A stretch of DNA of 64,000 nt from Rhizophagus irregularis (taxonomy: Eukaryota > Glomeromycota > Glomeromycetes > Glomerales > Glomeraceae): contig NC_089435.1 in assembly GCF_026210795.1 (NCBI RefSeq), forward strand, positions 2,542,001 through 2,606,000, read 5' to 3'. The position numbers and the translations under genes were made by a program. This document shows, piece by piece, positions 16,680 through 60,713 of this stretch. The number at the start of each line of letters is the position of its first letter. Position 1 is the stretch's first letter. The notes under the pieces are model-generated. The model was not told the DNA's origin, searched no databases, and saw only the letters and a list, made by a program, of their open reading frames with translations.

Positions 16680-17362
16680 TTATGAAAACTAATATTCAAG
16701 TAGTTTCAACTTGCCTGAACAACTTTCAATTAATAAATAAAGTTGATTTCATTTGCCCAAAGTGGAAATATTACGCTATAAATTAAAAAACAGAAAAGAG
16801 AGTTAATATCATCAAGAAAAATGCAATTTTCTCTGAGCACTACACCTACATTCATGAAAATTAATATTCAAGTGGTTTCAACCTGCCTGAACAACTTTTA
16901 TTTAATAAATAAAGTTGATTTCATTTGTCTAAAGTGGAAATATTACGCTCTAAATTAAAAAACAGAAAAGAGAGTTAATATCATCAAGAAAAATGCAATT
17001 TTCTCTAAGCACTACACCTACATTCATGAAAATTAATATTCAAGTTGTTTTAACCTGCCTGAACAACTTTCAATTAATAAATAAAGTTGATTTCATTTGT
17101 CTAAAGTGGAAATATTACGCTCTAAGTTAAAAAAACAGAAAAGAGAGTTAATATCATCAAGAAAAATGCAATTTTCTCTAAGCACTACACCTACATTCAT
17201 GAAAATTAATATTCAAGTAGTTTCAACCTGCCTGAACAACTTTCAATTAATAAATAAAGTTGATTTCATTTGTCTAAAGTGGAAATATTACGCTCTAGAT
17301 TAAAACACAAAAAAGAGAGTTAATATCATCAAGAAAAATGCAATTTTCTCTAAGCACTACAC
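16680..17362. repeat. 172-bp tandem satellite, left block
   Basis: About four copies of a unit of roughly 172 bp containing CAACCTGCCTGAACAACTTT, GGAAATATTACGCTCTAA and GAGAGTTAATATCATCAAG. Copies differ by only a few percent. Short open frames of 68 residues seen in it are products of the repeat. Confidence 0.92.
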
Positions 17363-19445
17363 CCCAATAAAAAGTTTATGTTGGGTTTTTGTAAAAAAAA
17401 CGTAAGATAAGTTAATATAACAAATTTAGTACAATTATGAGCATCCATTTGTACAATATCTGTAATGTTTTCGTATGGTATTTGAAATAAATTTGTTATA
17501 AACATGCATTATTTTTATATAGTATTTGAAAGTAATTTATTATAAATTTGCAATAGACTTGCACTTTATATGGTTTATTCTTCTAAATTTAAAATATAAT
17601 AATCTATTAAACTCGCTTTTTTTTGGCTTGTGCTATTGACCAGAGGTGGCAATGCTGATGTCTGAAATTATGTTTTCAATGTTATTCAAAATTCTAATAT
17701 TGTAGTAGGCTATGTACTTATTATACCAGTAATTTTACAGCTGACATATTCGAAGATTTTGTGATAAACTATCAAGAATAATATACACATGTATAGAATC
17801 CATAAGAGAGGTGCTGGTAGGAGGGTTATCTGTTTGAGAAGGGGAAGCTGTATCAACCAAAGAGTCAGGGTTGGTTTCGGAAGTGATAAAAGTGTTAGTA
17901 ATCGTATTAAGGAGGATGAGGAGCTGTAGAGTTATTGTCAGCATCATAGAGTCATTAGTGCGGGCTCTACATCAAACTTGAAAAGGATATGGAAAATTCT
18001 AGCAAATTAGAACTTTATGAACTAATAAAATTAAACAAATTAAAGCAATTTGTACCTTACCATTATGAACTTCTAACCAATTAAGGGAGTTTGGTTAACT
18101 TTAAAAGGTACAGTTGCTAGAATTGGCTCTTATCCCGCCTAAGTCTCTTAAGGAAATGGTTACTTCTAAGGTTATAGGTATGGAGTTCCGATCCAAAACC
18201 ACATTCTGAAAAAAAAAATTACTTTGGAAAGATGCTTTGATATGAATATAGAGATAAATGTGATTAATCAAAAGTGATTATGAAGATTTTGACATTGAAG
18301 CTGATGATTAATATGAAGTTAAAAATTTTAATAAAATTCATATTAAAACGTGTCTTAAAACATAAGCAATAAAAGTTATAAATAAAATTATTTAAATAGT
18401 ACATACCTCAAAAAAAAATTTTTATATTCATATTGGTGTATCAATTTTCGGATTATGTCATATATGTCGTTATAAAAAATAGAAATTATGGAAGGGATGA
18501 AATGAACCTATGAAAAAGGAAAATGAGATGTGTAAGATATTTAAAAAAATAAAAAAAAAGATGTGTGAAAAGAGAAAGTAAGTCGCATTAAAGGGGAGGA
18601 ATAAAACAAGACGCGTAAAAAAGGGAGGAATAAAACAAGACACGTAAAAAAGGGAGAAATAAAATAAAGACGCGTAAAGTAAGAAGAAATAGAATCAAGA
18701 TGTTTAAAAAGGGGAGGAATAAAATCAAGAAAATCAAGATGCGTAAAAAAAGGAGAAATAAAATAAAGACACGTAAAGAAAGAAGAAATAAATCAAGATA
18801 TTTAAAAAAGGAATAAAATCAAAAAATCAAGACGCATAAAAAAAAGAGAAATAAAATAAAGAAATGTAAAATAAAAAGGGAAAATAAAACAAGATATACA
18901 AATAAGAGAAATAGAGAAATAAACAAAACATGTAAGAAGGGAGAATAGATACTTAAAAAAGATAAAAACGCGTAAAAAAGGAGAATAGAAAGCAGGGAAT
19001 AAGATAACATAAGAAAAAGGAAAGAATAGTATAATGCATAAAAGAATACGGTAATAAGATGCATAAGATGCACAAAGTAAGGGTGATAGAGATGTGTAAA
19101 TAAATATTTGTTATTTACGTACTTCAAATTAAACGAAGTATATCATTACTATTTTAAGTTAAGTATTCCAAGTTTACCGAACTTCAATCTAAAATTGAAG
19201 TAAACAAAATAAAATTTTTTTTAAGAACTTTTTCTTTAACACAAATTTCAAACAAATTTAGAAATCATACAAATTTTGTTTATTAAATGTCATAAATTTT
19301 AATAAATCTTACAATAATTATACGTTTAAACTTTATAAAAAAATAAAAAATGTTTAAATATAACAAATACTATACGAAAATTAGACAATTATTACAAAAA
19401 CTAAACAAAAACCATATGAATTTTATACGAAGACTTTTTACTGGG
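17363..19445. mobile_element. 2.08-kb element inserted in the 172-bp satellite
   Basis: The termini CCCAATAAAAAGT and ACTTTTTACTGGG are inverted repeats with one mismatch. The satellite sequence TACACCTACATT is interrupted with a 3-bp duplication, CAC (17360-17362 and 19446-19448). The interior holds a purine-rich minisatellite (about 18570-19050, GACGCGTAAAAAAGGGAG-like units of about 30 bp) and no transposase. The 3-bp duplication and CCC ends resemble CACTA/EnSpm-type elements, but the superfamily is not settled. Confidence 0.8.
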
Positions 19446-20590
19446 CACCTACATTCATGAAAATTAATATTCAAGTTGTTTTAACCTGCCTGAACAACTT
19501 TCAATTAATAAATAAAGTTGATTTCATTTGTCTAAAGTGGAAATATTACGCTCTAAGTTAAAAAACAGAAAAGAGAGTTAATATCATCAAGAAAAATGCA
19601 ATTTTCTCTGAGCACTACACCTACATTCATGAAAATTAATATTCAAGTAGTTTCAACCTGCCTGAACAACTTTCAATTAATAAATAAAGTTGATTTCATT
19701 TGTCTAAAGTGGAAATATTACGCTCTAAATTAAAAAAACAGAAAAGAGAGTTAATATCATCAAGAAAAATGCAATTTTCTCTAAGCACTACACCTACATT
19801 CATGAAAATTAATGTTCAAGTTGTTTCAACCTGCCTGAACAACTTTCAATTAATAAATAAAGTTGATTTCATTTGTCTAGAGTGGAAATATTACGCTCTA
19901 AATTAAAACACAAAAAAGAGAGTTAATATCATCAAGAAAAATGCAATTTTCTCTAAGCACTACACCTACATTCATGAAAATTAATGTTCAAGTTGTTTCA
20001 ACCTGCCTGAACAACTTTCAATTAATAAATAAAGTTGATTTCATTTGTCTAGAGTGGAAATATTACGCTCTAAATTAAAACACAAAAAAGAGAGTTAATA
20101 TCATCAAGAAAAATGCAATTTTCTCTAAGCACTACATCTACATTCATGAAAATTAATATTCAAATGGTTTCAACCTGCCTGAACAACTTTCAATTAATAA
20201 ATAAAGTTGATTTCATTTGTCTAAAGTCGAAATATTACGCTCTAAGTTAAAAAACAGAAAAGAGAGTTAATATCATCAAGAAAAATGCAATTTTCTATGA
20301 GCACTACACCTACATTCATGAAAATTAATATTCAAGTAGTTTCAACCTGCCTGAACAACTTTCATTTAATAAATAAAGTTGATTTCATTTGCCCAAAGTG
20401 GAAATATTACGCTCTAAATTAAAAAACAGAAAAGAGAGTTAATATCATCAAGAAATGCAATTTTCTCTAAGCACTATACCTATATTCATGAAAATTAATA
20501 GTCAAGTGGTTTCAACATGCCTGAACAACTTTTAATTAATAAATGAAGTTGATTTCATTTGGCCAAAGTGGAGATTATAGTATATTTGGA
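19446..20590. repeat. 172-bp tandem satellite, right block
   Basis: About six and a half further copies of the same unit, continuous with the left block before the 17363-19445 insertion. The last copies diverge and end near 20590. Confidence 0.92.
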
Positions 20591-24222: not shown

Positions 24223-27200
24223 TTAATTTTCGTCTGCTTTAATATCTAAATAATTAAATATTAAATAAAATTAATTCACATAAATAATTTGCAAGATTAA
24301 TTCTTTTATATATCATAGTACATACCTAATGACCCCAGACCCTTAATTATATAATCATTCAAATCTTCACTTACTAGCATTTCATTTGCTTTTACACTAG
24401 CTTGTGAATTTTCACTTTCAGGAATTTCATTCAACTTTTTACTAGTATTCTCATCTGAATAATTAAATTAAATTAATTAATTTCATATAAATAATTTGCA
24501 AGATTAATTTTTTATATATTATAGTATATACCTAATGACCTCAAATCTCCTCTAATTACACAATCATTCAAATCTGAATGACTTGCATGATATGCTTGTG
24601 AATTTTCATTTTCAAGAATTTCATTCAATTTTTTACTAGTAAAATCAAGTAAGCGACTTGTAAAACATGCTTTAGGATGAGATTTAGTAGCAAGATTGTT
24701 ATGCCCAATTGGTGCATTTATAAATTCCATAATGTTGCTTTTTAATTCTTCACTGACTTCATTATCATAATGATGGAATTCACGGAAAATCCATGTTGCA
24801 ATAATTTCTGATACTTCTTCTGAAGATGGTCTTTTTAATGGATCTTCATTCCAACATTTTTTCATTAAATCTACATAACATTGTGGAGTATTTTCAATAA
24901 TTTTAGGACGTTCACCTTTACAAATACTTAAGCTAAGTTGAAGATCATGTGCTCTATTATTAAATGGTGGTATTCCAGATGTAAACTCCCACATAATCAT
25001 AGAAAAACTATATATATCACTAGCTGGAGTATAAGATTTGCCTCTTAAAATTTCAGGAGCCATAAATGATATAACACCATAAATATCATATTTTTCCAAA
25101 AACGATTTTACAGGTTGACATAATCCTAAATCACTAATATAAATTTTATCCTTATTCTTATTATCATCATGATTTAAAATATTACCATCATGAAAATCAC
25201 AATGAATAAGATTTTCTTTATGTATCTTACTAAGTCCAGAAATAATTTCATACAACATATATAATTTTTGATTCCAATTATTTTTGACTATACTTGTTAA
25301 ATTTTCTCTTAAATTACCTTTATTTGCATAATCCATTACTACCATATATTTCGATGTATTTGGATCTTTTGTGAATCCATAAAAATTTATAATATTGATT
25401 GAACTTAAAACACTTGTATGATATTCCCACTATAAACAATAATAATAATTTATTAACATAAATAAATTTAAATTTAAATTAAAAATAGAAAATAATATAC
25501 TATCATACTTCTTTCAAAAATTCATTTAAATTTTCATTTAAATTCTTATGACATTTAAGTATTACTTCTCCAACTCCATTTGACCAATTAGCTTTGTATA
25601 TAGTACCAAATCCTCCTTCATTAAGATATTCAACATTTTTAAATTTGTTATAAGGAATCCATTTTAATTCTTTTTTAAGAACAAAATCATCTATAATTGA
25701 ATTTCCACTTTTCCCAAATCTATAAATTTAAATAGTTAATATACTGTAGATTGTATTATAATTTATACAAAATAAATTATTACTTACTCTAAAATTTAAA
25801 TAGGGATTTAATGAAATATAAGTCTTAATTTTTAGATAAATACATATAATAATCTATGACTTACAACTTACCGACTAAAGTAATGGATATTTTTCGAATA
25901 AAAGAATTCAGTTAACAAATAAATATTATATAAAATATATAACAATAGAGACACTTACAAGCTAGATCATAAATAATTTAAGAAATTAGTTAGTTACATT
26001 ATATGTACTAAATATTATAATAATAAGTAATAATAGAATTAAATAAATAACTTACCATCTATAAAATAATTTTTTAAATAAAGAAATTAGTTGGTTTAAA
26101 TTATATGTAAATATTGTAATAATGAGTAATAGTAGAATTAAATAAATAACTTACGAACTATATTATTTAATAATTTTTAAATAAAGAAATTAATTAGTTT
26201 AAATTATATGTAAATATTATAACAATAAGTAATAAAAGAATTAAATAAATAACTTACGAACTATATTATTTAATAATTTTTTAAATAAAGAAATTAATTA
26301 GTTTAAATTATATGTAAATATTATAAATATTACAACAATAAGTAATAATAGAATTAAATAAATAACTTACTATCTATAAAATAATTTTTTAAGTAAAGAA
26401 ATTAATTAGTTTAAATTATATGTAAATATTATAACAATAAGTAATAATAGAATTAAATAAATAACTTACCATCTATAAGATAATTTTTTAAATAAAGAAA
26501 TTAATTAGTTTAAATATTATAACAATAAGTAATAATAAAATTAAATAAATAACTTACACCCTACATTATTTAATAATTTTTTAAATAAAGAAATTAGTTG
26601 GTTTAAATTATATGTAAATATTATAACATAAGTAATATTAGAATTAAATAAATAACTTATGACTTACCAACTAAAATAAATAACAAAATAATTTTTTAAA
26701 TAAAGAAATTAGTTGGTTTAAATTATATGTAAATATTATAACAATAAGTAATAATAGAATTAAATAAATAACTTACCATCTATAAAATAATTTTTTAAAT
26801 AAAGAAATTAATTAGTTTAAATATTATAACAATAAGTAATAATAGAATTAAATAAATAACTTACACCCTATATTATTTAATAATTTTTTAAATAAAGAAA
26901 TTAGTTAGTTTAAATTATATGTAAATATTATAACAATAAGTAATAATAGAATTAAATAAATAACTTACCATCTATAAAATAATTTTTTAAATAAAGAAAT
27001 TAGTTAGTTTAAATTATATGTAAATATTATAACAATAAGTAATAATAGAATTGAATAAATAACTTACACTCTATATTATTTAATAATTTTTTAAATAAAA
27101 AAATTAGTTAGTTTAAATTATATGTAAATATTATAACAATAAGTAATAATAGAATTAAATAAATAACTTACCATCTATAAAATAATTTTTTAAATAAAAA

Positions 27201-30200
27201 AATTAGTTAGTTTAAATTATATGTAAATATTATAACAATAAGTAATAATAGAATTAAATAAATAACTTACCATCTATAAAATAATTTTTTAAATAAAGAA
27301 ATTAGTTAGTTTAAATTATATGTAAATATTATAACAATAAGATAAAATAATTTTTTAAATAAAAAAATTAGTTAGTTTAAATTATATGTAAATATTATAA
27401 CAATAAGTAATAATAGAATTAAATAAATAACTTACCATCTATAAAATAATTTTTTAAATAAAGAAATTAATTAGTTTAAATATTATAACAATAAGTAATA
27501 ATAAAATTAAATAAATAACTTACACCCTATATTATTTAATAATTTTTTAAATAAAGAAATTAGTTAGTTTAAATTATATGTAAATATTATAACAATAAGT
27601 AATAATAGAATTAAATAAATAACTTACTCTCTATATTATTTAATAATTTTTAAATAAAGAAATTAGTTAATTTAAATTATATGCAAATATTATAATAATA
27701 AGTAATAATAGAATTAAATAAATAACTTATGACTTACCAACTAAAAAAATTATAAAATAATTTTTTAAATAAAGAAATTAGTTGGTTTAAATTATATGTA
27801 AATATTATAACAATAAGTAATAATGGAATTAAATAAATAACTTACTCTCTATATTATTTAACAATTTTTTAAATAAAGAAATTAGTTAGTTTAAATTATA
27901 TGTCCCTATAAAAAATAAATGTCCAGAAAATGTCTACGAAAATGTCTGGAAATTGTCCAGAATAAATCTGACATATCCAGAAATTGTCCGGAAAATGTCT
28001 ATTGTTTGCTACAAATTTGATACCTAAAATTTTGACATATCCGGACTTTGTCCAGAATATATCCAGAATTTGTCCAGTATAAAATTTTGGACAAATTCCG
28101 GACAGATAAACCCAGACAAATTCCGGACATAGTAAAAATTCAGATAATTTGAACTGGACAAATTCCGGACATGAAAAAATTCTGGACAAATTCTGGACGC
28201 TACTTCCAAAAAAGGATAAATTAATTTTGTAAAAAAAATGCAAAAATCACAAGACTGACATTCATAACCTCCTTTGTCATACTAATTAAATTTGCTAAGC
28301 AGGCAAAAATACTATATATCTATGATATAAAACTTTAGGTTAAAAGCAATTATAATGATGGCCACCTGTTGATCATCTTTTTGTGAAAATTTTATGAAAA
28401 AATATTTCAGGTCAATTTCCGGACAAATTCTGGACAAAATGAGTGTCCGGAAATGAGTGTGTTTTCGGAACAATTTCTGGACATGGTACCTGGCATTTTC
28501 TGGACATTTTCTGGACAATTATTTAGACAAATTTGCCGGACAATTTCTGGACAATTTCCGGACTCTTATTTTTTATAGGGTGTAAATATTATAACAATAA
28601 GTAATAATAGAATTAAATAAATAACTTATGACTTACCAACTAATAAAATTATAAAATAATTTTTTAAATAAAAAAATTAGTTAGTTTAAATTATATGTAA
28701 ATATTATAACAATAAGTAATAATAGAATTAAATAAATAACTTACTCCCTATATTATTTAATAAATTTTTAAATAAAGAAATTGGTTAGTTTAAATTATAT
28801 GTAAAATAAGAAATAATAGAATTAAATAAATAACTTATGACTTACCGACTAAAAAAATTATAAAATAATTTTTTAAATAAAAAAATTAGTTAGTTTAAAT
28901 TATATGTAAATATTATAACAATAAGTAATAATAGAATTAAATAAATAACTTACTCCCTATATTTTTTAATAATTTTTTAAATAAAGAAATTGGTTAGTTT
29001 AAATTATATGTAAAATAAGTAATAATAGAATTAAATAAATAACTTATGACTTACCAACTAAAAAAATTATAAAATAATTTTTTAAATAAAGAAATTAGTT
29101 AGTTTAAATTATATGTGAATATTATAACAATAAGTAATAGAATTAAATAAATAACTTACTATCTATAAAATAATTTTTTAAATAAAGAAATTAGTTAGTT
29201 TAAATTATATGTAAATATTATAACAATAAGTAGTAATAATAGAATTAAATAAATAACTTACCATCTATAAAATAATTTTTTAAATAAAAAAATTAGGTAG
29301 TTTAAATTATATGTATATATTATAACAATAAGTAATAATAGAATTAAATAAATAACTTACAATCTTTAAAATAATTTTTAAATAAAGAAATTAGTTAGTT
29401 TAAATTATATGTAAATATTATATCAATAAGTAATAATAGAATTAAATAAATAACTTACACCCTATATTATTTAATAATTTTTTTAAATAAAGAAATTAGT
29501 TAGTTTAAATTATATGTGAATATTATAACTAGGGATGGCAACGGTCATGGTCATTAACCGATTATGACCGGCCATGGCTGTGACTGATATTGGTTGGTCA
29601 AGACTTCTGACCGACTGTTTGACTGACCAAATTTTTTTATAAAGAATTTAATAAAAATGTCACGAAAACATTTTTATTAATAATTTAATTAAAAAAAACA
29701 TTTTCGCAAATGTTATTATTTTAACAAAAATGTTGTGAAATGTTTTTATTAATAATTTAATTAAAATAAAGCTTTTTCGCAACATTTTTTTAATTATTTT
29801 AATAGAAACGTTGCAAAAATGTTTTTTATTAATAATTTAATAAAAAAAAAAGTTTTCACACATTTTTTCAATTGCCTTAATAAAAACGCAGAAAAAAAAT
29901 GATCAGCCAAATGGTCAGTCAAACAGTCAGTCAGTCGGTCAAAGGTTCTTGACTGGTCATAACTGACCATTGACCGACCATGACTGACCGTTGCCATCCC
30001 TAATTATAACAATAAGTAATAACAGAATTAAATAAATAACTTACCATCTATAAAATAATTTTTTAAATAAAGAAATTAGTTAGTTTGAATTATATGTAAA
30101 TATTATAACAATAAGTAATAATAGAATTAAATAAATAACTTACTCCCTATATTATTTAATAATTTTTTAAATAAAGAAATTAATTAGTTTAAATTATATG

Positions 30201-33200
30201 TAAATATTATAACAATAAGTAATAATAGAATTAATTAAATAACTTACTCCCTATATTATTTAATAATTTTTTAAATAAAGAAATTAATTAGTTTAAATTA
30301 TATGTAAATATTATAACAATAAGTAATAATAGAATTAAATAAATAACTTACTCCCTATATTATTTAATAATTTTTTAAATAAAGAAATTAGTCAGTTTAA
30401 ATTATATGTAAATATTATAACAATAAGTATTAATAGAATTAAATAAATAACTAACGAGCTATATTATTTAAATAAAAAAATTAGTTAGTTTAAATTATAT
30501 GTAAATATTATGATAATAAGTAATAACAAAATTAAATAAATAACTTACGAACTATATTATTTAATAATTTTTTAAATAAAGAAATTAATTAGTTTAAATT
30601 ATATGTAAATATTATGACAATAAGTAATAATAGAATTAAATAAATAACTTACTCCCTATATTATTTAATAATTTTTTAAATAAAGAAATTAGTTAGTTTA
30701 AATTATATGTAAATATTATAACAATAAGTAATAATAGAATTAAATAAATAACTTACTATCTATAAAATAATTTTTTTAAATAAAGAAATTAGTTAGTTTA
30801 AATTATATGTAAATATTATAACAATAAGTAATAATAGAATTAAATAAATAACTTACCATCTATAAAATAATTTTTTAAATAAAGAAATTAATTAGTTTAA
30901 ATATTATAACAATAAGTAATAATAAAATTAAATAAATAACTTACACCCTATATTATTTAATAATTTTTTAAATAAAGAAATTAATTAGCTTAAATTATAT
31001 GTAAATATTATATCAATAAGTAATAATAGAATTAAATAAATAACTTATGACTTACCAACTAAAATAAATTACAAAATAATTTTTAAATAAAAAAATTAAT
31101 TAGTTTAAATTATATGTAAATATTATAACAATAAGTAATAATAGAATTAAATAAATAACTTACTCCCTATATTATTTAATAATTTTTTAAATAAAGAAAT
31201 TAATTAGTTTAAATTTTGTGTAAATATTATAACAATAGGTAATAATATAATTAAATAAATAACTTACTCCCTATATTAACCCAAAGATAAGATTTTCTGG
31301 TAATTTTTATCTTTAAGGGGAAAAAATTTTAGTCGATCATCCCATTTTGACCAGATTTTCGCCAAAATTTTCCCATTCCATTTTTAAAAATCACCACATG
31401 CACAGTTGCCGTGGATACGAAAAAAATTGCCTTTTTGGTAAAAAAGTCTCCAGTTAATCTTTATATTATTATGTACTTGTACATGTACATGAACATGAAC
31501 ATGAACATGAACATGAACATGTACAGTACATGTACATGTACAGAGAAAGTGAACATTCACTATGGAAACTTTTTGCGCTGAGTTTAACTGTGCTGCTCAA
31601 AAAGAATGTTAACTTGACAGATCATGAAATAGTATGTTGATCATTTTTTATTAAAATGTGAAAAAAAAAAAAATTTTTTTTTTTTAATCAAAAACGTCAA
31701 AAATTTGACGTTTTTGTGATTGAAAAATAAAAAAAAAATTGATTTTTTTTAATCAAAACGTCAGACTTGACGTTTTTGTGATTGAAAAATCAAAAATAAT
31801 TGATTTTTTTAAATCAAAAACGTCAAAATAATTGATTTTTTTAATCAACTTGACGTTTCTGTGATTAAAAAATCAAAAAAAAATGATTTTTTTAATCAAA
31901 AACGTCAGACTTGACATTTCTGTGATTAAAAAATCAAAAAAAAAATGATTTTTTTAATCAAAAACGTCAGACTTGACATTTCTGTGATTAAAAAATCAAA
32001 AAAAAATGATTTTTTTAATCAAAAACGTCAGACTTGACGTTTCTGTGATTAAAAAATCAAAAAAAAAATGATTTTTTTAATCAAAAACGTCAGACTTGAC
32101 GTTTCTGTGATTAAAAAATCAAAAAAAAATGATTTTTTTAATCAAAAACGTCAGACTTGACGTTTCTGTGATTAAAAAATCAAAAAAAAAATGATTTTTT
32201 TAATCAAAAACGTCAGACTTGACGTTTTTGTGATTAAAAAATCAAAAAAAAATGATTTTTTTTAATCAAAAGTCTGATGATTTTGTAATTAAAATCAAAA
32301 AAATTTGATTTTTATTAGCTAAAAACGTAAGACTTGACGTTTTTGTTATTAAAAATCAAGGAAGAATGATTTTTATTAGCTGAAAACGTCAGACTTGACG
32401 TTTTTGTTATTAAAAATCAAGGAAAATGATTTTATTAGCTAAAAACGTCAGACTTGACATTTTTGTTATTAAAAATCAAGAAAATTTGATTTTTATTAGC
32501 TAAAAACGTCAGACTTGACGTTTTTGTTATTAAAAATCAAGAAAATTTGATTTTTATTAGCTAAAAACGTCAGACTTGACGTTTTTGTTATTAAAAATCA
32601 AGAAAATTTGATTTTTATTAGCTAAGAACGTCAGACTTGACGTTTTTGTTATTAAAAATCAAGGAAAAATGATTTTTATTAGCTAAAAACGTCAGACTTG
32701 ACGTTTTTGTTATTAAAAATCAAGGAAAATGATTTTTATTAGCTAAAAACGTCAGACTTGACGTTTTTGTTATTAACAATCAAGGGAAAATGATTTTCAT
32801 TAGCTAAAAACGTCAGACTTGACGTTTTTGTTATTAACAATCAAGGGAAAATGATTTTTATTAGCTAAAAACGTCAGACTTGACGTTTTTGTTATTAAAA
32901 ATCAAGGAAAAATGATTTTTATTAGCTGAAAACGTCAGACTTGACGTTTTTGTTATTAAAAATCAAGGAAATTTGATTTTTATTAGCTGAAAACGTCAGA
33001 CATGACATTTTTGTTATTAAAAATCAAGGAAATTTTGATTTTTATTAGCTAAAAACATCATACTTGACGTTTTTGTTAGCTAAAAATCAAAAAAAATAGT
33101 GTACTTTTGTAAAAGTATACTAATAAATTAATAAAAGATTTTTTTATAACAATAGATTGTGTTTAGTGAGATTTATAAAAAAATTTAATGAGACTTTTTT

Positions 33201-36200
33201 TTAATAATAGTTTGGCATAAAAAAATTTTCTAGGATTTTCTTTTTTAATAATATAATGGTATAGTACAATAGATAGATATAATAAAATTTTCTGGGATTT
33301 ATTTTAATAACAATAGGTATGATAAAATTTTGATTTTTTTTTTAATATTAAACAATAGATTGGTATCATAGTACAATAGATTTATTTAATAAGTTTTTTG
33401 TGATTTTTTTAATAACAATAAATTGGTAATAACAATTATTAACTTATTAAGTTAATAATTGTTTTTTAGTAAAATTTTTTCCAGTAATACTAATACTACT
33501 AATAGGTAATAGATAACTTAATAAACTTTTATAAAATAGATTAAGATATATAAAAAAAATTTGAGATTTTTTTAACAATAGATTGGTACAATGAATAGAT
33601 ATAAAAAAATTTTCTGAATTTTTTTTTTAATAATAGATTGATATAAATATATTTTCTGAACTTTTTTTTTAACAATAGAGTCATTAGATCAATATAAAAA
33701 ATTTTTTGATAACAACAGATTGGTATGTTATAACTTATAATGGATAGATATAAAGAATTTTCTAAGGTTTTTTATTAATACAATAGATCAGTTTCTGGAA
33801 TTTTTTATGACAAATTAATTGGTATAGTACAAAAGATACTAGGTATAAAATTTCTTGGGATTTATTTTAATAACAATAGGTATGATAAAATTTTTGGTGA
33901 CTTTTTTTTAATAATAATAGATTGGTAATAGACAATTATTACTGCGACTAGTAATTATTGAAAACCAATCTGATTTGCCAATTCATTATCAGTTCAGTTT
34001 TTAATGTTTTTGCAACATTTTTTATTGTCTATTACCAATCTATTGTTATTAAAAAAAACACAAAAAATTTTATTAAATCAATCCATTGTACTATACCATC
34101 CATTGTACTATGATACCAATCTATTATTGTTATTAAAAAAAAAATAATCACCAAAAATTTAGCATACCTATTGTTATTAATATAAATCTCAGAAAATTTT
34201 ATTATATCTACTGTATCTATTGTACTATACCATTAAAAAAATCTTGGAAAATTTTTTTATTACTACTTATCAGTAATATTAGTGTTACTGTGAACTATAA
34301 AAAAAATCTTACTAAAAACAATTATTAACTTCAGTTAATAAGTTAATTGTCTATTACCAATATATTGTTATTAAAAAAAAATCATAGAAAATTTTTTTAT
34401 AAATCTCACTAACACAATCTATTGTTATAAAAAAATCTTTTATAAATTTATTAGTATACTTTCAAAACTAAACTCACTCACTATATCCAAAAGTACACTA
34501 GTTATTTAATAATTTTTTAAATAAAGAAATTAATTAGTTTAAATTATATGCAAATATTATAACAATAAGTAATAATAGAATTAAATAAATAACTTACTCC
34601 CTATATTATTTAATAATTTTTTAAATAAAGAAATTAATTAGTTTAAATTATATGTAAATATTATAACAATAAGTAATAATAGAATTAAATAAATAACTTA
34701 CTCCCTATATTATTTAATGATTTTTTAAATAAAGGAATTAGATAGTTTAAATTATATGTAAATATTATAACAATAAGTAATAATAGAATTAAATAAATAA
34801 CTTACCATCTATAAGATAATTTTTTAAATAAAGAAATTAATTAGTTTAAATATTATAACAATAAGTAATAATAAAATTAAATAAATAACTTACACCCTAC
34901 ATTATTTAATAATTTTTTAAATAAAGAAATTAGTTGGTTTAAATTATATGTAAATATTATAACATAAGTAATATTAGAATTAAATAAATAACTTATGACT
35001 TACCAACTAAAATAAATAACAAAATAATTTTTTAAATAAAGAAATTAGTTGGTTTAAATTATATGTAAATATTATAACAATAAGTAATAATAGAATTAAA
35101 TAAATAACTTACCATCTATAAAATAATTTTTTAAATAAAGAAATTAATTAGTTTAAATATTATAACAATAAGTAATAATAGAATTAAATAAATAACTTAC
35201 ACCCTATATTATTTAATAATTTTTTAAATAAAGAAATTAGTTAGTTTAAATTATATGTAAATATTATAACAATAAGTAATAATAGAATTAAATAAATAAC
35301 TTACCATCTATAAAATAATTTTTTAAATAAAGAAATTAGTTAGTTTAAATTATATGTAAATATTATAACAATAAGTAATAATAGAATTGAATAAATAACT
35401 TACACTCTAAATTATTTAATAATTTTTTAAATAAAAAAATTAGTTAGTTTAAATTATATGTAAATATTATAACAATAAGTAATAATAGAATTAAATAAAT
35501 AACTTACCATCTATAAAATAATTTTTTAAATAAAAAAATTAGTTAGTTTAAATTATATGTAAATATTATAACAATAAGTAATAATAGAATTAAATAAATA
35601 ACTTACCATCTATAAAATAATTTTTTAAATAAAGAAATTAGTTAGTTTAAATTATATGTAAATATTATAACAATAAGTAATAATAGAATTAAATAAATAA
35701 CTTACACTCTATATTATTTAATAATTTTTTAAATAAAAAAATTAGTTAGTTTAAATTATATGTAAATATTATAACAATAAGTAATAATAGAATTAAATAA
35801 ATAACTTACCATCTATAAAATAATTTTTTAAATAAAAAAATTAGTTAGTTTAAATTATATGTAAATATTATAACAATAAGTAATAATAGAATTAAATAAA
35901 TAACTTACCATCTATAAAATAATTTTTTAAATAAAGAAATTAATTAGTTTAAATATTATAACAATAAGTAATAATAAAATTAAATAAATAACTTACACCC
36001 TATATTATTTAATAATTTTTTAAATAAAGAAATTAGTTAGTTTAAATTATATGTAAATATTATAACAATAAGTAATAATAGAATTAAATAAATAACTTAT
36101 AACTTACGATCTTTTAAATAAAGAAATTAGTTAGTTTAAATTATATGTAAATATTATAACAATAAGTAATAATAGAATTAAATAAATAACTTACACCCTA

Positions 36201-37095
36201 TATTATTTAATAATTTTTTAAATAAAGAAATTAGTTAAATTATATAAATAATATAAATATAGATATCATATAACTTACACCCTGTAGTATTATTAATTAT
36301 TAATTAGTTAAATATAAAGATAATATAAAAGTATTTACTGTAAATTATATATATTACTTACAATCTAGTAGTTATTTAAATTAAGAATATAATTAGTTGA
36401 ATTATGTAAAATATTAAACAAATAAATATAATATATATATTGTAACTTACCATCTGTAATATAATTAATTATTAAATAGTTATTTAAACAAAGAATTTAG
36501 TTAATTGAATGTTATGTAGAATAAATAATTAAAGGAATAAAGATTTAAATAACTGATAACTTACCAACTACAGTATTATTAATCATTAAATAAATTATTT
36601 AGTTATATGGAATACAATAAAAATAATGAGTAATTCATTATATTAACTTACAAGCTAAATATTTAATATAATTTTTATATAAAATAGTTAGCCTAAATAG
36701 TATTTGAATTGTTTATAAATAAAAATTTAATATTTTAGCTTGTTTGATATACCTTTAGGTTCTCCAGTGCCACTTCCTTCAAATTCCTTGATGCTACTTC
36801 TTTCAAATTCTTCAGTGCCACTTTCTTCAAATTCTTCAATATTTCTGGAAACTAGTTTTATTATATTGGAAAATTTGGTTTAATTATATTTGATTATTTA
36901 TAATTAAGTTTTCTTAATAAATAAAAATCTTAATATTTCAATTTTGTTTTGTATACTATATTTACCTTCAGGTTCTTTGGTATCACACAAAACTAGTTTT
37001 ATTATATTGCAAGTTTGTTTTAATAATTTTGAATAATCCTAATTTATATTACTATTCATGTTATATGCTTTACCTTTACCAATACGTTGGCCCAT
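24223..37095 (-). CDS. Protein kinase gene interrupted by a ~10-kb microexon array
   Basis: My model on the minus strand: exons 37074-37095 (ATG start), 36966-36992, 36753-36851, then 64 three-nt cassettes and one 1-nt cassette between 36654 and 25788, then 25509-25719, 24532-25429, 24326-24454 and 24223-24245 (TAA). The lengths sum to 1602 nt, 533 residues. The kinase domain is complete: glycine loop NEGGFGTIYKA (about 147-157), Lys169 in VILK, catalytic HCDFHDGN with Asp262, DLG with Asp284, MAPE near 307-310, then DIYSFSMIMWEF and a KRPS motif. HCDFH in place of HRDLK marks a non-RD kinase, as in the large Rhizophagus TKL-like families. The kinase domain is certain. The joining of N-terminal exons through the array is inferred from splice sites and frame, and needs transcript evidence. 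An alternative is a separate short upstream gene. Confidence 0.75.
24326..24454 (-). CDS. Duplicated C-terminal tail exon of the kinase
   Basis: This 129-nt exon encodes TSKKLNEIPESENSQAS and DLNDYIIKGLGSL. These match the tail of the preceding exon (TSKKLNEILENENSQAY, DLNDCVIRGDLRSL). The downstream introns are also alike. It is a tandem duplication of tail exon plus intron, phase 1 to phase 1. Confidence 0.85.
25509..25719 (-). CDS. Kinase N-lobe exon
   Basis: A 211-nt exon starting one base before a codon. It encodes FGKSGNSIIDDFVL, then the glycine-rich loop and the ATP-binding lysine, and ends after FLKE at a GTATGA donor. Its reading frame needs two bases from upstream. The phase-1 cassettes deliver only one base, and the 1-nt cassette at 25788 supplies the second. 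Confidence 0.9.
27904..28580. mobile_element. 677-bp CCCTATAAA element inside the intron array
   Basis: Termini CCCTATAAAAAATAA and TTATTTTTTATAGGG are perfect inverted repeats. The array sequence ATATGTAAAT is split with a 3-bp duplication, TGT (27901-27903, 28581-28583). The interior is packed with TCCGGACAAATT and GTCCAGAA words in both orientations. There is no transposase. It is about 95% identical to 38853-39486. Small open frames inside are not genes. Confidence 0.88.
29530..30002. mobile_element. hAT-type miniature element inside the intron array, 473 bp
   Basis: Termini TAGGGATGGCAACGGTCA and TGACCGTTGCCATCCCTA are perfect inverted repeats, and the flanks carry a perfect 8-bp duplication ATTATAAC (29522-29529, 30003-30010). 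Subterminal copies of TGACCGACCA-type words and internal AACATTTTTATTAATAATTT repeats are present. It has no coding capacity. Confidence 0.92.
31675..33090. repeat. 61-bp satellite with a TGACGT palindrome
   Basis: About 23 units. Each carries AACGTCAGACTTGACGTT, a hairpin with 7-bp arms and a GACT loop. Two subfamilies follow each other: one with GATTAAAAAATCAAAAAA spacers (31675-32270), one with TTTTTATTAGCTAAAA spacers (32270-33090). TGACGT is the core of CRE/ATF-type sites, but function is unknown. Confidence 0.88.
33099..34498. mobile_element. 1.4-kb palindromic element with TA flanks
   Basis: GTGTACTTTTG at the left and CAAAAGTACAC at the right are inverted repeats flanked by TA on both sides, as in Tc1/mariner-type miniature elements. 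Long stretches of the arms (ATAACAATAGATTG... against CAATCTATTGTTAT) remain complementary. The axis lies near 33970. There is no transposase. Confidence 0.65.
36753..37095 (-). CDS. N-terminal exons of the kinase gene
   Basis: Exon 1 (37074-37095) encodes MGQRIGK and ends in a GTAAAG donor. Exon 2 (36966-36992, 27 nt) and exon 3 (36753-36851, 99 nt) begin after near-identical AATAAAACTAG acceptors, so the two introns share their 3' ends and probably arose by duplication. Exon 3 encodes three imperfect eight-residue repeats (EEFEESGT, EEFERSSI, KEFEGSGT). Exons 2 and 3 are multiples of three in phase 1-1, so each can be duplicated or skipped without changing the frame. Confidence 0.65.
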
Positions 37096-38384: not shown

Positions 38385-40198
38385 TTGGGAATTGCTAAAC
38401 ATCACCTGGGCGATTGTCGCCTGGGTTTTTTTGTTCAAATATGTCACATGATTTACCATATATACAGAGTAAATTTATTAATCGGCTGACGGCTGATTTT
38501 TTCAACTTAGTTAATTTTTGATCGGCTAAACTTAAAATTTTATCTCAAAAGATATTTTAAAAAAAATTTTTTTGCAAACATATTTATTCAAAATAATCTT
38601 ATCTAATGAAATTTTATTTGCAAATATTAAAATTTAAATCACACATTTACGATTTTAAAGAAAAAATCACTATTTATTTTTAATGAAGTGATACTATAAA
38701 AGAAAGATATTAAGTAAATTACAATGATCAAGAAGAAAGATGCTAATAAAAAAATGAAATAACAATGAAGTAATGGAAAGTAATAGAAGATGAAAGGGAG
38801 TAAAAAAGAGTAATATGAATTGATAGGAAACAAAAGGAGTAATAGGACATGACCCTATAAAAAATAAATGTCCGGAAAATGTCTACGAAAATGTCCGGAA
38901 ATTGTCCAGAATAAATCTGGCATGTCCAGAAATTGTCCGGAAAATGTCTATTCTTTGCTACAAATTTGATACCTAAAATTTTGACATATCCGGACTTTGT
39001 CCAGAATATATCCAGAATTTGTCCAGTATAAAATTTTGGACAAATTCCGGACAGATAAACCTGGACAAATTCCGGACATGAAAAAATTCTGGACAAATTC
39101 TGGACGCTACTTCCAAAAAAGGATAAATTAATTTTGTAAAAAATTGCAAAAAGCACAAGACTGACATTCATAACCTTCTTTGTCATACTAATTAAATTTG
39201 CTGAGCAGGCAAAAATACTATATATCTATGATAAAAAACTTTAGGTTAAAAGCAATTATAATGATGGTTACCTGTTGATCATCTTTTGTGCCAAATTTTA
39301 TGAAAAAATATTTCAGGTCAATTTCCGGACAAATTCTGGACAAAATGAGTGTCCGGAAACGAGTGTGTTTTCGGAACAATTTCCGGACATGGTACCTGGC
39401 ATTTTCTGGACATTTTCTGGACAATTATTTAGACAAATTTTCCGGACATATTCTGGACAATTTCCGGACACTTATTTTTTATAGGGTGATGGGAGATGAA
39501 AAGGAGTGATAGGAGGATGAAGAGAAGTGATGGAAGACGAAATGGAGCGATGGGAAGATGAAAAGAAGTGATGGGAAGATGAAGAGGAGTGATGGGAGAC
39601 GAAAAGGGTGATGAGAGACAAAAAAAGTTATGAGAAAATGAAGAGGAGTGGTGGGAGACGAAAAAGAGTTATGAGAGACAAAAAGAAATGATGGGAAGTA
39701 AACAGGAGAGAAAAAGAAATAATGGAAAACGAAAAGATGTAATAGAAAAAAATGAAGTTAGTAAGAAACGAAATATAAGATAGAAACAAAATAAAAAAAA
39801 ATAAATAAATAAAAAAAATATTTTTATTTAATTGTAGAACCGAAAGAACTAAAAGATCTAAAAAAAAATGAAATAAAATTAGTTAAAAATGAAATATGAA
39901 ACAGAAACAAAATAAAAAAAAATAAAAAATAAGAAACGAAATGTAAAGTGAAAAACAACTGAACCTTAATTGCAGAACCGGAAGGACTAAATAATGAAAT
40001 AGAGTTAGTAAGAAACAAAGTGTAAGAATGTAAGTTAGAAATAAAAATAATAGAAAAAAAGAAAAATACCTCGAGACCGAAAGAACCAAGGAAACGAACC
40101 TCGAGCCTATAATTAAAGTAATCATGTGGCCAATCTGGGCAATCAAAAATATTAAATCTGCCGCGTGATCGACCCAGGCGATGTTTTAAAATTCCCAA
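38385..40198. mobile_element. 1.8-kb element with TTGGGAATT termini
   Basis: TTGGGAATTGCTAAACATCA at the left pairs with TGTTTTAAAATTCCCAA at the right, with CCTGGG/CCCAGG just inside. A TATAA pentanucleotide flanks both ends (38380-38384, 40199-40203). The interior carries purine-rich GATGAAAAGGAGTGATGGGA minisatellites, interrupted by a younger element at 38853-39486. No transposase is seen, so the superfamily is unassigned. Confidence 0.7.
38853..39486. mobile_element. Second CCCTATAAA element, 634 bp, nested
   Basis: Same termini and interior as the copy at 27904-28580, shorter by a deletion of about 40 bp. It is flanked by a 3-bp duplication TGA (38850-38852, 39487-39489). It sits inside the minisatellite of the 38385-40198 element, so it is the younger insertion. 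Confidence 0.88.
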
Positions 40199-58405: not shown

Positions 58406-59373
58406 CTAAGTAGATGTTTCATCTCTAAGAGTAGCAGTTGCATAATGATCATCATCGAATATAATTACAACATTAGTTAGAGGATTATCATCACGTAAGC
58501 CATTCTATAAGAAGTGAAAAAAAAAATTAATCTTTTTTAGGGAAGGAATTATCAATAATAAATTTCTTAAAAACTTACATCAACTTTTTTCAATCTGGGA
58601 GGCGTAGGATAAGTATTAAATATATCATTGATGCATTTGTGAACAGCATATACATCACTTTCCATAATTCCCCACAAAGTTGGACCTAATAACGGGTTTT
58701 CATTTACAGGCAATCCAATATATTTATGAGATATATAAAGAACAGAACTTGCAATCTCTTTTGAAGTATAATAAAGACAAAACGGATGATTATAAGTTTG
58801 ACTAATTATTAGGCTTGCCATTCTTATTAAAATAATTTTTTTCTTTTCAGTGATAATAATATCGGATGAATTCTCAAGAAAGTCCACCACATGAATATGT
58901 GGTAAATCAACATCGAAATCGAAACATATTTTTTCCGCTAGAACTTTTTCTTTATTAATGATAATTTTAATCCACTTTGTAAATTCATCAGCATCATAAA
59001 AATTATTATCACGTCGTATTACACGGGCGCAAGCAACGGCAACATAATCAATTATACGAGGATGTTCTGTAGTTTTTGTCGCCAAAAAAGTAGCAGCGGC
59101 CCCAATGTCATGTTGTGTATAATCTTTAAAACTACAACGCATAAAAAATCTATGAAAATAAGTCGTCGCAGTTGCAATCGTTTGATGTTTCAAGCGAAGC
59201 CAAACGCTAATATTTTTAATAAATTGAATACCATCACTCCTCAATTTATTTTCTTCTTCCATAGAAATTCCATCGCAACGAGATGGTGTGAATTTGCCAT
59301 ATTGATTTTTGTCAAATTTCCATTGAGATTTAGAAATGTCGTTCATACTTTTTTTTTGGAATAAAGAGTTCAT
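58406..59373 (-). CDS. Cyclin K/T-like protein
   Basis: Two exons: 58579-59373, ending at a GTAAGT donor, and 58406-58504 with TAG at 58406-58408. The intron is 74 nt and in phase 0. The product is 297 residues. The first cyclin box is clear: WKFDKNQYGKFTPSRCDGIS (about 17-36) is the N-terminal signature of transcriptional cyclins, followed by WLRLKHQTIATATTYFHRFFM (about 57-77) and AAATFLATKTTEHPR. A second, weaker cyclin fold follows from about residue 165. Closest match by eye is cyclin K/T or fungal Ctk2/Pch1, which activate CTD kinases acting on RNA polymerase II in the nucleus. The short acidic tail from exon 2 (IIFDDDHYATATL) has no known role. It is divergently arranged to the calpain gene. 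Confidence 0.9.
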
Positions 59374-60713
59374 GAAAAAAATTTTTTTTTTTTTGTTTAT
59401 ATTCGAATTAATAAAAGATTAGTTTTAAGTTGTTTAAATATTAAAAAGAGATTTTATTAAGTAATTTTTATTTTTAGAAATTATGTTTCGATTATTATTT
59501 TTTTTTTCATATAAAATGGTTTTTTTTTATATTATAGGTGCTGATCAAGAAAAATAAAAAAGAAAGAATTTTAGTAAAAACTTACGTTTAACTTTTATAT
59601 TGGATGTTTGATACTATTCCTTTGATCTTTATTAAGGACATAAATTTCCCGATAAGTAAATCATACAGTGTCAAACTCCGCGAATTATATATAACATGAG
59701 GCAGAAATATGTACGAACCGCAGGAAATTATGAGTCAGTTAACCAATCATTTGAAATATAATGATAAACTTTTACCGTTTTCAAACATTTTACCGTTTTT
59801 AAACATTTTTCTTTTGTTTAAAGTCAAATTCAAAGTAATACACATGATGTAATTATAAGATTTTCTTTGCATTTGTTGCTTTTGTTGCAAAATGTATTCG
59901 GTATTGCCGAACAAACAATTTATTAATTTCCATTTGTGTAACAACATGACTTGTTCCGAAATATAAAATTTATTAGCTTTTCACCAATAAAAAAATATTA
60001 TAAATATTGTCATATAAAGTTCATATATAATAAAACAATGGGATTTTGTATTACAATATTTTAACGGAGTTTGAAACATAATAATTTGAGCTTGTATAAA
60101 TATTAATATAACTCATGTACCGTAGATATTATAATAACGTCATCAAGCCTAAAAATGTACGATATTGATCCCGACAATGTGAGTAAAGATGTGTACATCA
60201 TATGACAATTAGGAGAAAGTATAACAATAATTTATATTGGATAGTACAGAAAAAAAATAAAAGGAAAAGCCGACGCATATCACTCACGTGATAATACTTC
60301 TTCGTTATGAAATTGGTTCTTCTTTAAGGAAATATATTTTTGCCAACTCATTTATTTATTTTTTTTTCTCTTTCTTTATTAAACATTTTTGTAATATCGT
60401 TAATACATATTATTTTTCTTTCTATATAATATATAATGAATTAATTAATTGGTAGAAGAATAAAGAATTTTTCAGCCCCTTTCAGTGCGGTAATAATTAC
60501 GGGACTAACTGCATGTTGTTCCAAATCTGGTTAAATTACTTACTCAATGAAGTAAATCATAAATAATATATAATAAAAAAAAATGTCGATCAAATTTTAT
60601 ATTTTTAGTATTTATAGCGTATATAAATAGTACGTGTATAACCCACCCTTTTTTAAAAATAAATTTAAATAAATCAGTTTTCCTTCTCCCTTTCCTTGTA
60701 AAATTTAAAAATT
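59374..60713. other. Divergent promoter region between cyclin and calpain genes
   Basis: 1.3 kb with no gene. A CACGTGAT word sits near 60288-60295. T-rich tracts fill 60355-60425. Confidence 0.45.
60619..60629 (+). promoter_or_regulatory. Putative TATA box of the calpain gene
   Basis: GTATATAAATAG lies about 90 nt upstream of the ATG and is followed by a pyrimidine-rich stretch (TTTTCCTTCTCCCTTTCCTT at 60678-60697) where transcription could begin. Confidence 0.5.

Follow-up and report, generated by a model that had tools for sequence, protein, structure and literature searches.

A tyrosine-kinase-like gene of Rhizophagus irregularis with a predicted array of 64 three-nucleotide exons and one single-nucleotide exon, and its relatives in the genome

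Organization of the window gene

The window, by which we mean the whole 64,000-nucleotide stretch analysed here (NC_089435.1, positions 2542001-2606000 of the mycorrhizal fungus Rhizophagus irregularis; 24% G+C), carries on its minus strand a gene in which three 5' exons are separated from two kinase exons by four blocks of tandem units. Each unit combines a short predicted intron with an exon of 3 nucleotides (nt), and the last triplet is followed by a predicted exon of a single nucleotide. In the order of transcription, the parts of the gene are:

37074-37095, minus strand: exon 1, with the start codon, encoding MGQRIGK plus 1 nt (phase 1); the joined-model translation is stop-free
36966-36992, minus strand: exon 2, 27 nt, phase 1 on both sides
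36753-36851, minus strand: exon 3, 99 nt, Glu-rich (VSRNIEEFEESGTEEFERSSIKEFEGSGTGEPK), ending with 1 nt of a codon
34598-36654, minus strand: array block 1, 22 predicted three-nt exons
30045-31270, minus strand: array block 2, 13 predicted three-nt exons
28637-29461, minus strand: array block 3, 9 predicted three-nt exons
25872-27848, minus strand: array block 4, 20 predicted three-nt exons, ending CTT TCG
25788-25788, minus strand: predicted one-nucleotide exon A (TTTTAG-A-GTAAGT)
25509-25719, minus strand: first kinase exon, A + FGKSGNSIIDDF...FLKE
24512-25429, minus strand: main kinase exon, open frame, joining the first kinase exon in frame; 3' end approximate

In a profile search, the main kinase exon (24512-25429) matched PF07714 (PK_Tyr_Ser-Thr) with an expected value (E) of 5.6e-34 (118.1 bits, cut-off 23.1) and PF00069 with an E of 7.7e-33, and by this sequence evidence the window gene is a tyrosine-kinase-like gene. 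At 24300-24660 on the minus strand, a possible C-terminal exon region lying downstream of the kinase exon was seen by eye in two similar copies, which suggests a local duplication.

A unit-by-unit check placed 64 triplets on the minus strand between 36654 and 25874, each of them (64/64) preceded by AG and followed by GT. A preliminary description of this locus had counted 64 consecutive three-nucleotide microexon candidates with exactly 3 nt from acceptor to donor, and both statements were borne out. The donors are GTAAGT in 63/64 units and GTTAGT in 1/64, the acceptors are TAG (60), CAG (2) or AAG (2), and CTAAC or CTAAT lies 13-58 nt upstream in 60/64. Introns between the triplets are 80-111 nt long save four of 162, 583, 788 and 3,327 nt, the last three of which contain inserted DNA. 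For [TC]AG-N3-GTAAG there are 61 matches on the minus strand of 25700-36760 and 0 in the rest of the window on both strands. With other spacings in the same interval and strand, gaps of 1 and 10 nt were found once each and gaps of 0, 2, 4-9, 11 and 12 nt not at all, the rest of the window (both strands) having 0-4 matches for each gap other than 3; the looser pattern AG-Nk-GTAAGT gave 63 sites with gap 3, 6 with gap 1 and 1 each with gaps 2 and 10. The first five triplets of block 1 (CTT, TTG, ATG, ATT and GGT) belong to diverged units that occupy the same positions in most complete paralogs, and we agree with the earlier remark that the outer units are diverged.

The window gene can thus be predicted, by its sequence, to contain 64 consecutive 3-nt exons and one 1-nt exon, all with canonical splice sites. 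When the second kinase exon is joined at 25429, the model runs from the ATG through the linker encoded by the array into both kinase exons without an internal stop. The linker starts AFDDWWYRYDEYDEYGYVGYG and finishes DILHAFEFGKSGNS; the earlier estimates of about 70 introns and of a linker of about 65 residues rich in Tyr, Asp, Gly and Arg hold on this evidence. The unit at 25788, previously taken as a triplet that bounds the array, is instead the 1-nt exon.

Related genes in the genome

The search covered the window's own genome (146,748,485 bases in 32 contigs). The kinase exon gave 151 matches, 150 of them listed, scoring being limited to the 150 best among 4,149 first-look candidates, and exon 3 gave 50 matches at E <= 10, several of them to one locus. 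Rather than being one of a kind, as it had first appeared, the window gene belongs to a large genome-wide family. We studied 47 distinct loci, consisting of the 30 best kinase-exon matches, which include the window gene and were examined as pieces of 3.2 kilobases (kb) in gene orientation, and 28 complete loci, with 11 in common. The complete loci are the window and 27 others with an exon-3 match near a listed kinase exon, 10 of these 27 being among the 30 best.

All 30 best kinase-exon matches carry an array of 6-15 gap-3 units, nearly all within 1.5 kb upstream, and in each of the 30 a single [TC]AG-N1-GTAAG begins 70-89 nt ahead of the match. Pooled over the 30 pieces, gap 3 was found 377 times on the gene strand and gap 1 30 times, the other gaps being rare or missing (gap 0, 2; gap 2, 0; gaps 4-9, 0; gap 10, 3; gap 11, 3; gap 12, 2). 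On the opposite strand gap 3 did not occur, with gap 2 found 9 times and gap 9 21 times.

With a 29-base pattern made from the 1-nt unit and its surroundings, 94 sites were found in the genome within 3 mismatches (control, 0), of which one is without the AG-N1-GT spacing. In 89/94 cases the site is followed by a listed kinase exon on the same strand, in 5/94 none is listed, and in no case does one lie on the opposite strand within 1 kb; these sites account for at least 89 of the 150 listed kinase exons. One common unit type has 2,478 sites within 2 mismatches, compared with 1 for the reversed control, and a unit pattern with the gap left free at 0-12 gave 1,110 exact matches (control, 0), 99 of the 100 listed having gap 3. 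When 36 places of such units were checked, 21 lay near a listed kinase exon, all on the kinase strand, and 15 had none listed; from these 15, three unit clusters were followed further and 3/3 precede a more diverged kinase exon, with one gap-1 unit each. In these diverged members (L061, L062 and L063) the kinase exon begins RF or RI and continues ..SGSKI, downstream of an array with one 1-nt unit. L062 and L063 also have long C-terminal open frames that look coiled-coil-like by eye.

Constancy of the three-nucleotide exon

The 28 complete loci were parsed with a chain model having a flat prior over exon lengths of 1-15 nt. Among 941 exons, 884 are of 3 nt and 30 of 1 nt, with a median intron of 96 nt. 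Exons with a positive score were 3 nt long in 866/917 cases on the gene strand, compared with 3/39 on the reverse complement and 1/28 in shuffled sequence. To avoid circularity, units were also found by the intron interior alone. At a fixed offset, 415/605 of these have GT, and AG lies exactly 3 nt before it in 401/415; many of those without GT were seen by eye to have a short insertion beside the donor. With the donor allowed to shift, and gap 3 chosen where several gaps fitted, 584/605 have gap 3 and 2/605 have gap 0. In the gap-3 units the donor-to-core distance ranges from 2 to 19 nt (mainly 6 and 13). Since this distance varies while the gap stays at 3, insertions and deletions appear to gather right beside the exon and rarely inside it. 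Positional counterparts of the first units in 14/18 canonical loci have a mean intron identity of 0.76-0.88 and varied intron lengths, and the exon is still 3 nt. A pure repeat artefact was considered and rejected, because gap 3 outlasts the insertions and deletions on the adjacent intron side and the two control sequences gave few 3-nt exons.

In three loci (L041 near 2285, L047 near 2816 and L042 near 3475, gene orientation) a donor GT has become TT or AT in an otherwise normal intron; skipping of these units would preserve the frame.

The 1-nt exon and the kinase reading frame

Exons 1-3 of the window gene each end with one base of a codon, and the kinase exon at 25719 has to be preceded by two bases of a codon. 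The 64 triplets, together with one base from exon 3 and the 1-nt exon, would supply exactly these two, exon A at 25788 being the middle base of a Glu codon built from three exons (G, A and A).

Exon 3 is entered in phase 1 and leaves 1 nt in 26/28 complete loci, as chosen automatically with guidance from composition; of the two exceptions, inspected by eye, L057 has an earlier donor with which 1 nt would again be left, and in L051 the frame changes inside exon 3. A direct join of exon 3 to the kinase exon leads to a stop after 7-18 codons in 28/28 loci, and with one extra nucleotide the first 205 nt of the kinase exon are open in 28/28. The strict 1-nt pattern is present in 26/28 loci; L057 has a GTGAGT donor and in L050 the unit is displaced by inserted sequence. 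Among the 30 1-nt calls of the chain model, 26 are the last before the kinase exon. In three of the four interior calls (L050, L036 and, by comparison with L002, L032) an AG stands two bases before the called site, which permits a triplet reading, and the fourth (L053) has lost the usual acceptor; in L051 and L057 the 1-nt exon was missed by the model yet is present in both. These data argue that the kinase frame cannot be entered without the 1-nt exon, which is a candidate single-nucleotide exon because leaving it out breaks that frame at every complete locus.

Stop codons at the unit junctions

According to the phase set by exon 3, a linker codon would take its first base from the third position of unit i and its other two from the start of unit i+1. 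In this phase, stops were found at 1/877 adjacent junctions, compared with 21.7 +/- 3.8 when unit order was shuffled within runs (0/1000 shuffles as low). Stops in the other phases numbered 147/877 (phase 2) and 10/915 (phase 0). A recount on a cleaned set of 893 units, with the window curated and 2-nt calls and units from inserted DNA removed, gave 1/851 against 22.3 +/- 3.6 (lowest shuffle, 13), with 143 stops in phase 2 and 6 in phase 0; when runs were cut at introns longer than 140 nt, the count was 1/829 against 21.4. No adjacent stop occurs among the window's 64 units. When every type of junction was counted a single time, the stops were 1/330 against 15.3 +/- 2.8 (minimum of 7 in 500 shuffles), a test that lessens, and does not remove, the dependence among junctions.

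The depletion is confined to direct neighbours. Junctions at lag 2 have 22/839 stops against 20.9 expected (cleaned, 23/809 against 21.5), those at lag 3 have 19/802 against 20.0, lags 4-8 are likewise undepleted, and reversing the unit order gave 27 stops. At least one lag-2 stop is present in 13/28 loci. The restriction of the depletion to lag 1 and to the coding phase suggests that triplets are exposed to selection as neighbours joined to one another. The simplest reading of these counts is that the messenger RNA (mRNA) would hold every triplet joined to its neighbour, in order and translated. Since junctions at lag 2 and beyond carry stops at chance level, common skipping is argued against, and most simply skipping would not be common enough for selection to clear lag-2 stops.

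Variation of the arrays and sharing of units

In the cleaned parse the arrays range from 7 to 64 triplets, the smallest being that of L035, whose 2,552-nt intron may hide further units. The commonest first five triplets are CT[CT], TT[GA], ATG, ATT and GGT; among complete loci with more than 10 parsed exons, ATT is fourth in 22 and GGT is fifth in 20. The last two triplets are CTT TTG in 19/30 loci, and the change of TTG to TCG near this end is silent in the coding phase (T-TT to T-TC, both Phe). The predicted linkers have conserved ends, usually A-[LF]-[DN]-D-W ... F-E-F-G-K-S-G-N. The inner array is more variable: the window gene and its nearest paralog share 98.1% DNA identity in the kinase exons and 93.9% in exon 3, and their inner arrays still differ.

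Triplet identity is associated with the acceptor end of the triplet's intron (mutual information 2.12 bits, compared with 0.94 when permuted). The end TAATATAG is found mostly with GGA, GGT or AGA, TTTAATAG with ATC or ATT, TATTTTAG with TTG and TTTTATAG with ATG. For 217/834 units the intron is best matched within its own locus and for 127 there is a tie, the remainder matching another locus; the nearest intron of another locus has a median identity of 96%, and inner units usually match a different position (692/732). These data suggest a limited pool of intron-plus-codon cassettes, spread by recombination. However, the sharing is loose, as the nearest intron carries an identical triplet in only 266/745 cases within the same locus and 267/833 in another locus (chance, 7.6%); the latter figure indicates that introns and triplets do not always travel together. 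Since unit types are shared and array length varies, we infer that recombination within introns gains and loses codons without a frameshift.

Read across units, the amino-acid entropy rises from 3.04 bits (phase 0) to 3.98 bits, which suggests that, through the split phase, one pool gives a greater variety of residues. In the pooled linker D, R, F, W, N and Y are abundant; this composition follows from the unit pool and for that reason was not used as evidence of selection.

Interpretation and alternative explanations

The architecture, its spread through the genome, the frame logic and the adjacency-specific selection against stops can all be read from the DNA, and very probably the array of the window gene represents 64 translated 3-nt exons, included as a rule and followed by a 1-nt exon, each with short GT-AG introns. 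All introns before the kinase exon would be in phase 1 save the last, so that the codon of each linker residue would straddle two triplets, with one base from the end of the first and two from the start of the second, and the 1-nt exon would contribute the base required for the kinase frame. Exons too small for exon definition may be handled by the spliceosome through intron definition across the ~95-nt introns. As the repeat unit would be one intron plus one codon, unequal recombination anywhere in it could gain or lose whole codons with introns intact and the frame kept, and, the codons being split, each new pair of neighbours could create a new residue. The outcome would be a kinase family with a hypervariable linker between conserved ends, for which kinase docking, regulation or recognition are guesses at a role.

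Several observations weigh against this interpretation. i) The first automatic parse brought only 22/28 arrays into the kinase frame, four of the others having an extra interior 1-nt call and two a missed 1-nt exon; in L045 a weaker 1-nt site was called in place of the usual A; and odd-length, non-triplet exon calls (4, 7, 11, 13 and 14 nt) in seven loci were set aside before translation. ii) The first stop counts took in two 2-nt calls and two units from inserted window DNA, one adjacent stop exists in L031 and one in the held-out L014, and junctions are not independent because block duplication partly copies unit order. iii) The 19 loci outside the main set, with stops at 1/212 junctions against 4.6 +/- 1.7, are weak evidence alone, 28/1000 shuffles being as low and lag 3 also being low (0/152 against 2.9). 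iv) No recognised AG-GT pair fits 17/605 of the units found by their cores, 59/893 triplets begin with AG, so that the acceptor can be read one step later, leaving 1 nt, and the window gene has three introns of 583-3,327 nt. v) One unit among the 100 listed, at C3:4851240-4851267, has a 4-nt gap and is a candidate frameshifting or dead unit. vi) A genome-wide search for an intronless spliced copy (retrocopy) by the predicted junction pattern found none. This pattern had 6 matches within 3 mismatches (control, 0), which were rejected as retrocopies: three (one on C14 and two on C24) read ...TTTTAGATTTGG, an ordinary acceptor-exon boundary, and the other three look unrelated.

Many consecutive AG-N3-GT sites in one long interval could also be ratchet points at which a 10-kb intron is removed stepwise by recursive splicing, the triplets not being kept in the mRNA, and the frame alone permits a ratchet that drops all triplets and keeps the 1-nt exon. 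However, a discarded ratchet gives no reason for stops to be depleted at lag 1 alone and in no phase but the coding one, dropping the whole array including its 1-nt unit breaks the kinase frame at all 28 complete loci, and gap 0, the spacing of classical recursive sites, was found in only 2/605 of the core-found units. The near absence of stops at adjacent junctions and the frame-restoring 1-nt exon thus favour the microexon reading of the preliminary description and oppose the pure ratchet that it had offered as an alternative, which we consider highly improbable. A related view, which overlaps with regular inclusion and does not exclude it, is that the translated triplets are often skipped, so that one gene yields a library of many linker variants. 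Each skip would preserve the frame and such uniform units should permit skipping, but the undepleted lag-2 stops, spread over nearly half of the complete loci, make frequent skipping unlikely.

Near-identical copies of ~100-base-pair (bp) tandem units, common to different loci, would likewise be expected of a noncoding satellite or mobile repeat lying by chance in a kinase intron. This explanation is scarcely credible in view of the conserved splice signals, the frame logic and the stop depletion, and of the positions of the units: the 1-nt sites almost throughout precede listed kinase exons of the same strand, with none listed on the opposite strand within 1 kb, every unit place near a listed kinase exon is on its strand, and the three clusters followed further all turned out to precede a kinase exon. 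The three insertions in the window array, for their part, would fit a kinase transcribed from its own downstream promoter, with the array belonging to a separate or decayed transcript. Against this, the 64 units of that same array are free of adjacent stops and exon 3 exits in a compatible phase in nearly all complete loci, and we regard it as very doubtful.

Beyond regular inclusion of translated triplets in single genes, about a hundred kinase genes may shuffle, duplicate and exchange a limited pool of intron-plus-codon cassettes that encodes all 20 residues through split codons. Such a genome-wide diversity-generating architecture might supply novel segments for recognition or docking with the frame kept, perhaps to tell self from non-self or to recognise partners, in a fungus whose many nuclei co-exist. 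This wider proposal is tentative, and we consider it a serious possibility that stops a little short of being probable.

Comparison with known systems

Classical recursive (ratchet) splicing sites in animals are zero-length exons that leave nothing in the mRNA. The kinase arrays resemble them in having successive acceptor-donor pairs across a long interval, but differ in that 3 nt are apparently kept and under coding constraint.

The bicycle/megacycle genes of aphids form a fast-evolving family with many small internal exons (~17 exons on average), nearly all in one phase, and one megacycle gene has more than 100 microexons (PMC9168663). Their 'phase 2' denotes a start at codon position 2, where the triplets of the kinase arrays also start. 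The bicycle genes are secreted effector candidates and not kinases, and the excerpts of that paper describe no uniform 3-nt exons and no tandem array of intron-plus-codon units. The window model, with 9 Cys in all, has no CYC motif of the aphid type. The micro-exon genes (MEGs) of Schistosoma have many short symmetric exons, up to 36 bp, and vary through alternative splicing (PMC8293314); like the kinase arrays, they combine protein variation with short symmetric exons that can be lost without a frameshift. As far as the excerpts go, the kinase arrays differ from them in that nearly all exons are 3 nt and in that the stop pattern argues for regular inclusion and for variation between genes.

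Single-nucleotide exons are known from APC11 of Arabidopsis (PMC4674806), CYP621A of Fusarium (PMC12940212) and, in mitochondria, the placozoan cox1 (PMC5436844), a 2026 abstract (PMC12940212) naming the Fusarium case as the second such example and as the first from a fungal gene. The candidate in the kinase family likewise stands between two introns, and its omission would break the phase, as omission of the exon in CYP621A does. The known cases, as given in these excerpts, concern single genes or orthologs, whereas the candidate described here recurs at 94 sites in one genome, beside arrays of 3-nt exons. Isolated 3-nt microexons occur in Drosophila TnT, where the exon is skipped in some tissue, and mouse Ncam (PMC8042270); both are single microexons, and no arrays are mentioned in the excerpt.

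In a search of the literature restricted to open-licence papers, no description of such an array, nor of microexons in Rhizophagus, was found, and none of the systems compared has, in the excerpts, a repeat unit made of an intron and one split codon. We rate the architecture as categorically new and the splicing chemistry that it would use as ordinary, although on a stricter view these might be microexon-rich genes of an extreme form. If transcripts confirm the predictions, these genes would have the longest run of single-codon exons found in the literature searched, and the family would add a whole set of 1-nt exons to the two nuclear cases and one mitochondrial case found there. The arrays would then be a natural test of the smallest exon that the spliceosome can handle, and would allow fast protein evolution without the risk of frameshift, the conserved part of the repeat being the intron and its payload one codon.

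Insertions, duplications and neighbouring features

The other features noted within the array are as follows:

31282-34510, no strand assigned: inserted DNA in one array intron, bounds approximate, holding a 61-bp tandem repeat
29530-30002, no strand assigned: insertion in an array intron, bearing TAGGGATGGCAAC as terminal inverted repeats and flanked at each end by a duplicated 8-bp sequence, GTTATAAT (by eye)
27905-28583, no strand assigned: insertion in an array intron with many GTCCGGAC-type motifs, bounds approximate
34805-35609, minus strand: nine-unit block, copy 1, 99.9% identical over 805 bp to 26469-27273
26469-27273, minus strand: nine-unit block, copy 2, matching 34805-35609

By its near identity, the nine-unit pair appears to be a recent duplication within the array. 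The 61-bp repeat, inside the largest of the insertions, spans 31848-33096 with 20.6 copies and has ACGTCA/TGACGT motifs. The insertion at 29530-30002 is presumably hAT-like. Motifs of the GTCCGGAC/GTCCAGAA type and similar rows of tandem repeats are common to 27905-28583 and to ~38743-39470, upstream of the gene, and the two regions are likely copies of one element.

Elsewhere in the window, a 172-bp tandem unit is common to two separate arrays, at 16682-17363 and 19446-20572, with matches of ~95%. A cyclin-like gene (PF00134) lies at 58567-59418 and a gene for a calpain-family protease (PF00648 and PF01067) at 60702-63023.

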